Part shown: positions 9,819 to 36,720 of the stretch, one piece after another
Layout of the letters: every line of letters begins with the position of its first letter
Numbering within the stretch: the stretch's first letter is position 1
Source of the DNA: Acidobacteriota bacterium
GTDB lineage: Bacteria > Acidobacteriota > Terriglobia > Terriglobales > Acidobacteriaceae
Assembly (NCBI GenBank): GCA_028876335.1
Contig: JAGWSG010000207.1
Location: forward strand, 1-45,611
Length of the DNA stretch: 45,611 bases
Direction: 5' to 3'
Notes under the pieces: generated by a model
The model's input: only the letters and a program-made list of their open reading frames with translations
The model's database searches: none
What the model was told of the DNA's origin: nothing
Position numbers and translations under genes: made by a program

Positions 9819-10115
9819 ATGACGAAAGCAGATCTGGTGGAAAAGGTAACCCAGCTCGGCGACCTGACGCGTCGCGATGGCGAGGTCATTGTCGAAACCG
9901 TGTTCAATTCTGTAATTGGAGCTTTGCAGGGCGGCGACAAGATTGAGATTCGCGGCTTCGGTTCGTTCCGCATTCGCCAGCGCAATCCGCGCATTGGGCG
10001 TAATCCCAAAACTGGTGAACGCGTGGAAGTTCCAGCCAAAAAGGTTCCCTACTTCAAGCCGTCCAAGGAATTGCGCGACCTTGTGAATCCTTCCGAAGCG
10101 CAGGCAGCCTCCTAG
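9819..10115 (+). CDS. HU/IHF-family DNA-binding protein
   Basis: MTKADLVEKVTQLGDLTRRDGEVIVETVFNSVIGALQGGDKIEIRGFGSFRIRQRNPRIGRNPKTGERVEVPAKKVPYFKPSKELRDLVN. RBS GGGGAGG. Confidence 0.95.
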   Translation: MTKADLVEKVTQLGDLTRRDGEVIVETVFNSVIGALQGGDKIEIRGFGSFRIRQRNPRIGRNPKTGERVEVPAKKVPYFKPSKELRDLVNPSEAQAAS

Positions 10116-36501: not shown

Positions 36502-36529
36502 GAGAGGGATGCATTTGCATCCCCCTCTT
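36502..36529 (-). terminator. Hairpin downstream of the 24-aa K/A-rich micro-ORF
   Basis: AGAGGG-ATGC/GCAT-cc-CCCTCT hairpin; minus-strand tail AGTGTTTCTG (modest T content). Confidence 0.5.
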
Positions 36530-36554
36530 GTGTTGCCTTGTTGATGGTTGCCAG

Positions 36555-36629
36555 TTACTTCTTCTTCTTGGCGGCTTTCTTTGCTGCCTTCTTCGCAGGT
36601 GCCTTCTTGGCTGCTTTCTTGGTTGCCAT
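36555..36629 (-). CDS. 24-aa Lys/Ala-rich histone H1 tail-like micropeptide
   Basis: Translation MATKKAAKKAPAKKAAKKAAKKKK*. GGGAGA RBS upstream; near-consensus promoter and inverted repeat precede it. Too short for the ORF track. Confidence 0.7.
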   Translation of the reverse strand: MATKKAAKKAPAKKAAKKAAKKKK

Positions 36630-36663
36630 TTGCCTATTCTCCCTTTTCGATGGGTTGCATCGA

Positions 36664-36685
36664 AACTGCAATATTTATTGCAGTT
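36664..36685. repeat. Perfect inverted repeat at the predicted transcript start of the micropeptide gene
   Basis: AACTGCAATA-TT-TATTGCAGTT (10-bp arms). Confidence 0.85.
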
Positions 36686-36690
36686 GAGGA

Positions 36691-36720
36691 ATGTATAGAT
36701 TCATGCTTGCTCAGTGTCAA
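36691..36720 (-). promoter_or_regulatory. Near-consensus sigma70 promoter of the micropeptide gene
   Basis: Minus strand TTGACA - 17 nt - TATACA(T): -35 at 36715-36720, -10 at 36692-36697. Confidence 0.8.

Follow-up and report, generated by a model that had tools for sequence, protein, structure and literature searches.

The window, that is, the whole analysed stretch of 45,611 nucleotides, carries on its minus strand a compact transcription unit (36502-36720, read from the sequence), which is flanked on the same strand by a gene for a CPBP-type membrane protease upstream and by rsmE downstream, both named from their open reading frames. Direct reading places a -35 hexamer TTGACA at 36720-36715 and a -10 hexamer TATACA at 36697-36692, with a 17-nt spacer between them (promoter 36692..36720). 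The -35 element and the spacing bear out the wording "near-consensus promoter" of the preliminary description, whereas the -10 element does not, since it matches TATAAT at four of six positions and lacks the final T, which is also why this promoter is absent from the promoter-scan list. An inverted repeat, H1 (AACTGCAATA-AA-TATTGCAGTT, 36664..36685), coincides with the predicted transcript start; its 10-bp arms are perfect, and RNA folding gives an 8-bp stem with a 4-nt loop. A second hairpin, H2 (TTCGATG-CAACC-CATCGAA, approximately 36646..36664), follows the inverted repeat ahead of the ribosome site and had been overlooked in the first account of the locus. The ribosome-binding segment AAGGGAGAATAG (approximately 36634..36645) is nearly invariant between genera, and GGGAGAATAG stands 5' of the start codon ATG at 36629. 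The open reading frame 36629-36555 consists of 24 codons plus TAA and encodes the peptide MATKKAAKKAPAKKAAKKAAKKKK, in which 12 of the 24 residues are lysine, one fewer than the 13 counted previously. The unit ends with a hairpin with an 11-bp stem (GAGGGGGATGC-AAAT-GCATCCCTCTC, 36502..36527), a likely terminator as judged from its sequence, fold and homologues. The layout originally proposed, namely TTGACA-17-TATACA, inverted repeat, ribosome site, micro-ORF and downstream hairpin, was confirmed element by element on the minus strand. An upstream mini-ORF (MQPIEKGE), starting inside H2, was dropped as a candidate; the corresponding ATG of other species lies in frame with the main ORF.

With the 261-nt unit as a query, nearly all of the 59 congeners were matched strongly and over almost the full length, so that the promoter, the 5' hairpin, the second hairpin, AAGGGAGAATAG, the micro-ORF and the terminator hairpin could be aligned; the unit was also matched in many further genera of the family Acidobacteriaceae. 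Among 170 homologous units with TTGAC/TATAY elements, the promoter spacer measures 17 nt in 169 and the -35 hexamer reads TTGACA in 153. Scanning for the pattern GGAGAAY, gap, MATKK retrieved 95 of the 399 class genomes (about one with the reversed control) and 33 of 396 genomes in a phylum-wide draw, all but three of which belong to the class; the non-acidobacterial matches to the pattern were set aside as bL27-like N-termini or chance hits. The start codon, the reading frame and the K/A-rich composition are kept in more than 160 distinct homologous units, and the claim of a real gene made in the preliminary description stands, as the complete unit is conserved both in congeners and between genera; the absence of a conserved start, frame or K/A pattern, named there as a refuting outcome, was not encountered.

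A covariance model of the leader provided an independent view of the coding part. A MAFFT folding alignment of all 104 leaders gave no usable consensus, and the model was built instead from 18 leaders; it ends at GAATAG and contains no coding sequence. This leader-only model matched 210 of 301 family genomes, covering 70 of 80 genera, almost always in a single copy. In 20 of 20 extra leader matches, taken from previously unread genomes, a lysine-rich micro-ORF lies right behind the leader (e.g., MATKKKAKKKKKH, MAPKKKAAKKKKKH and MATKKGGSKKGGSKKGSKKH); for L333, L336, L338 and L344 the script had taken an ATG further upstream as the start, and the micro-ORF was read directly in the same sequence. 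Since the model holds no coding sequence, this test is free of any selection for lysine content and, together with the conservation of the unit, strongly supports the sequence-based identification of the micropeptide gene as real and conserved. No leader match was found in the near-complete family genomes G129, G163, G143 and G111, so that the leader, and perhaps the gene, would be dispensable there, either through loss or because the leader has changed. Three sister-family loci (L111, L112 and L121) encode MATKKPAKKAAKK... peptides with a hairpin of different sequence at the same place; their genomes were not detected by the leader model.

Variation within the ORF resembles that of a protein-coding gene. 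The comparison of synonymous and nonsynonymous changes proposed in the preliminary description gave mostly silent changes: single-base codon differences between equal-length ORFs comprised 12610 silent versus 1336 replacing changes, against an expectation from sites of 3.57 replacing per silent change, in counts for which the pairs are not independent (related sequences enter many times) and the ORFs were picked partly by lysine content. Codon position 3 holds 18199 of the differences, and the commonest replacements turn Ala into Thr, Pro, Ser or Val. The homologous peptides range from 12 to 37 residues, changing by whole codons, with a lysine share of 43-64% and a pooled composition of 51% K, 35% A and 4% P; acidic residues total two in 168 peptides. 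The shortest form, MATKKKAKKKKH, of 12 residues (L263, L264), still comes with promoter, hairpins and terminator. The C-terminus ends in ...KKKH or ...KKH in one genus group (L328-L332, L256, L261, L263, L264) and in ...KKK in the other. Non-lysine spacer residues are exchangeable, even for Gly or Ser, as in L336 (MATKKGGSKKGGSKKGSKKH again), and this replaceability points to charge rather than to a fold or a motif.

The RNA itself is also constrained. The 187-nt transcript folds with z = -4.9 relative to dinucleotide shuffles, and the leaders of homologous units are likewise more stably folded than shuffles (median z -3.7). In the wide alignment, which was fitted to the covariance model, two-sided changes occur in 12 of 14 stem pairs (six of eight in H1 and six of six in H2 being compensatory), amounting to 113 cells, where shuffles gave 28.7 and a slid-partner control no more than 21; the 18-sequence MAFFT alignment gave 20 versus 6.0. 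H2 is lost in some genera. The distance between the arms of H1 ranges from 4 up to 14 nt in homologous units and is mostly 8-12 nt. The inverted repeat had initially been read as either an operator or a 5' stabilising hairpin; because its stem pairs co-vary and the arm spacing varies, the hairpin is the more likely of the two and the operator is disfavoured. Given the great constancy of its CTGCA/TGCAG core, it may still contain a recognised element. Of 168 units, 162 have the downstream hairpin, and most positions of its stem show paired changes. Its commonest form, GGGGGACGC, occurs only at this locus in three of six genomes searched and was found nowhere in the other three; a generic repeat or terminator was rejected as a reading of the hairpin, the exact GGGGGACGC being confined to this locus where present.

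A functional RNA would likewise be in keeping with the very strong conservation of the CTGCA/TGCAG core, of AAGGGAGAATAG and of the terminator core. One alternative is a dual-function RNA, whose hairpin-rich transcript would pair with and regulate other mRNAs and yield the peptide in addition. The unit is short and autonomous, with its own promoter, terminator and small ORF; its transcript of about 185 nt has a conserved leader and a locus-specific terminator hairpin. Precedents exist in Spot 42/SpfP (PMC11188072) and VcdRP/VcdP (PMC8672173), which, like the present unit, are short, structured transcripts containing a micro-ORF (15-30 codons); SpfP is a 15-aa peptide encoded by Spot 42. The composition of the micropeptide is, however, quite unlike that of their peptides, no sign of a pairing seed was seen, conservation in the non-coding portions falls mostly on stems and the ribosome site instead of on a single-stranded seed, and the ORF varies in a protein-like manner. 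Moreover, no Rfam 15 family covers the unit, the one chance-level match falling elsewhere in the 600-nt stretch searched. On balance, a dual-function RNA appears unlikely.

Gene order bears on a second alternative, according to which the peptide is a leader peptide or attenuator, with ribosome stalling at the lysine codons controlling the next gene, rsmE. The lysine-run ORF does lie directly before a terminator hairpin, the order CPBP-unit-RsmE is common, and rsmE follows about 100 bp further on in many genomes. Nonetheless, L100, L101, L105 and L118 have RsmE in the reverse orientation, and in Edaphobacter/Granulicella-type loci the unit is followed by an unrelated, uncharacterised coiled-coil-like gene (read from the sequence) on the other strand; upstream, a thiolase-like gene, likewise named from sequence, is found in L145 and L161. 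Across these lineages no same-strand downstream gene is conserved, as it either changes or is reversed, and the predicted fold has no competing antiterminator. Such a variety of gene contexts argues for an autonomous unit and not an attenuator of rsmE, a reading that gene order, having already largely refuted it, leaves with next to no probability.

A further possibility is that the peptide is a small basic ribosomal protein embedded in rRNA, like mycobacterial bL37/bS22 or eukaryotic eL41; mycobacterial ribosomes are known to contain bL37 and bS22 as extra small proteins (PMC6133939). The peptide shares with these proteins a very small size and a very basic character, its promoter looks strong, and in most lineages the unit adjoins rsmE, a gene for a 16S rRNA methyltransferase. 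Yet bL37, bS22 and eL41 occupy fixed positions in the ribosome (PMC6133939), whereas the micropeptide is of low complexity and, far from being of near-constant length, varies three-fold (12-37 aa), which together with its replaceable spacers does not suit a fixed ribosome slot. In other lineages rsmE is inverted or absent nearby, and no chain in the PDB matched the 24-mer at E values up to 10, with a query that is short and of low complexity. A ribosomal role is accordingly quite improbable.

In its composition the peptide resembles the H1-like proteins of bacteria, namely chlamydial Hc2 (Pfam HC2), the Burkholderia H1-like proteins (NF038053) and AlgP, which are built of K/A/P-rich repeats (KKA, PAKK). 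The micropeptides are likewise K/A/P-rich, basic and of low complexity; both they and the H1-like proteins have almost no acidic residues and tolerate changes in length. They differ in that the micropeptide has merely 12-37 residues, and the 24-mer found no match among the Pfam or NCBIfam profiles. To our knowledge, H1-like bacterial proteins have not been described with a comparably fixed mRNA layout. In Bryobacterales-type genomes, one syntenic slot is occupied by K/A/P-rich proteins of 23-29 or 74-97 residues starting with MATKK (L125, L164, L181 and L243 compared with L138, L147, L183, L242, L244, L246, L247 and L248). Within this group the flanking genes and the promoter region are shared, and position identifies the short and the long forms as orthologues. 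The promoter region differs from that of the Acidobacteriaceae unit, and the two genes may be homologous or may have arisen in parallel. A 74-aa relative of this type scored 13.6 bits against a cut-off of 40 for HC2 and 17.6 against 80 for the Burkholderia H1-like profile, so that neither it nor the 24-mer exceeds the curated cut-offs of these models. In the same genome as the window, about 11.8-12.0 kb along contig G000:C29 (L002, L003), lies the gene for a larger K/A-rich protein whose N-terminal part is acidic and whose long tail is basic and H1-like.

A comparable element is the C-terminal tail of mycobacterial HU/MDP1 (HupB), which is disordered and basic and organises DNA (PMC5974015). 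Unlike in HupB, the tail-like sequence of the micropeptide is the whole gene product, without an HU fold. Each of the 21 genomes checked encodes HU separately, and one such gene lies inside this window; the HU-family match (PF00216) there lies at 9819-10088 on the plus strand, about 26 kb away from the micro-gene. Taken by analogy, the micropeptide most likely works like an H1 or HU tail, although it is not assigned to those families. No description of the peptide was found in the freely accessible literature, and the main texts of two omics papers on cultured relatives make no mention of histone-like or lysine-rich small proteins.

The reality of the gene, its frame, its autonomy and its RNA hairpins are thus supported by comparison, and from the sequence we infer high expression, translation and nucleic-acid binding. 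The explanation that we favour, and consider probable, is a well-transcribed, disordered polycation that would act as a stand-alone nucleic-acid binder resembling the tail of histone H1. The sigma-70-type promoter with its fixed 17-nt spacing would yield a short mRNA (about 185 nt), beginning within a few bases of H1, carrying H2 before the ribosome site and ending at the strong hairpin terminator; the 5' hairpin most likely shields this mRNA and aids high output. Translation would then give a disordered peptide of 12-37 residues, about half of them lysine, which would sit as a small polycation on the phosphate backbones of DNA and/or RNA with no sequence specificity, in the manner of the lysine-rich tails that histone H1 and mycobacterial HU carry, but without a folded domain. 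Charge is kept while length, spacers and the last residues vary, which argues for such non-specific electrostatic binding rather than for a folded structure, a fixed place in the ribosome or a motif. A nucleoid- or RNA-binding role is suggested by composition, by the tolerance for length and spacer changes and by the longer, H1-tail-like relatives of the Bryobacterales type. The obvious partners would be nucleic acids, and polyphosphate or membranes may also be bound.

As a special form of the polycation reading, the peptide could stand in, as a gene product, for the polyamines of a lineage mostly without known spermidine routes. SpeD (PF02675) was detected in two of 13 genus genomes (G000-G012) and in none of eight sister-family genomes (G060-G067), and NspC scored above its cut-off in none of these 21, so that the usual spermidine routes appear to be mostly missing in the genus. 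Both genomes with SpeD (G001 and G009) nevertheless retain the peptide gene, and the link is a correlation based on SpeD and NspC among the spermidine/polyamine routes; we hold such a substitution to be very improbable. A broader version of the polycation reading is somewhat less remote, if still speculative and on the doubtful side: half-lysine peptides, down to 12 residues and with no folded domain, expressed from a dedicated and strictly conserved unit, might serve in Terriglobia as abundant counter-ions of nucleic acids, partly replacing polyamines or histone tails.

The gene is also present in cultured strains of Edaphobacter, Granulicella and other Acidobacteriaceae, which brings deletion and pull-down tests within reach. 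If the polycation reading is true, the micropeptides would be among the smallest conserved bacterial protein families (12-37 residues), occurring in the majority of genera of an abundant family of soil bacteria, with no counterpart in any library searched. Since their length and spacers vary while charge is kept, they would offer a natural test of the minimal sequence needed by a chromatin- or RNA-condensing protein.
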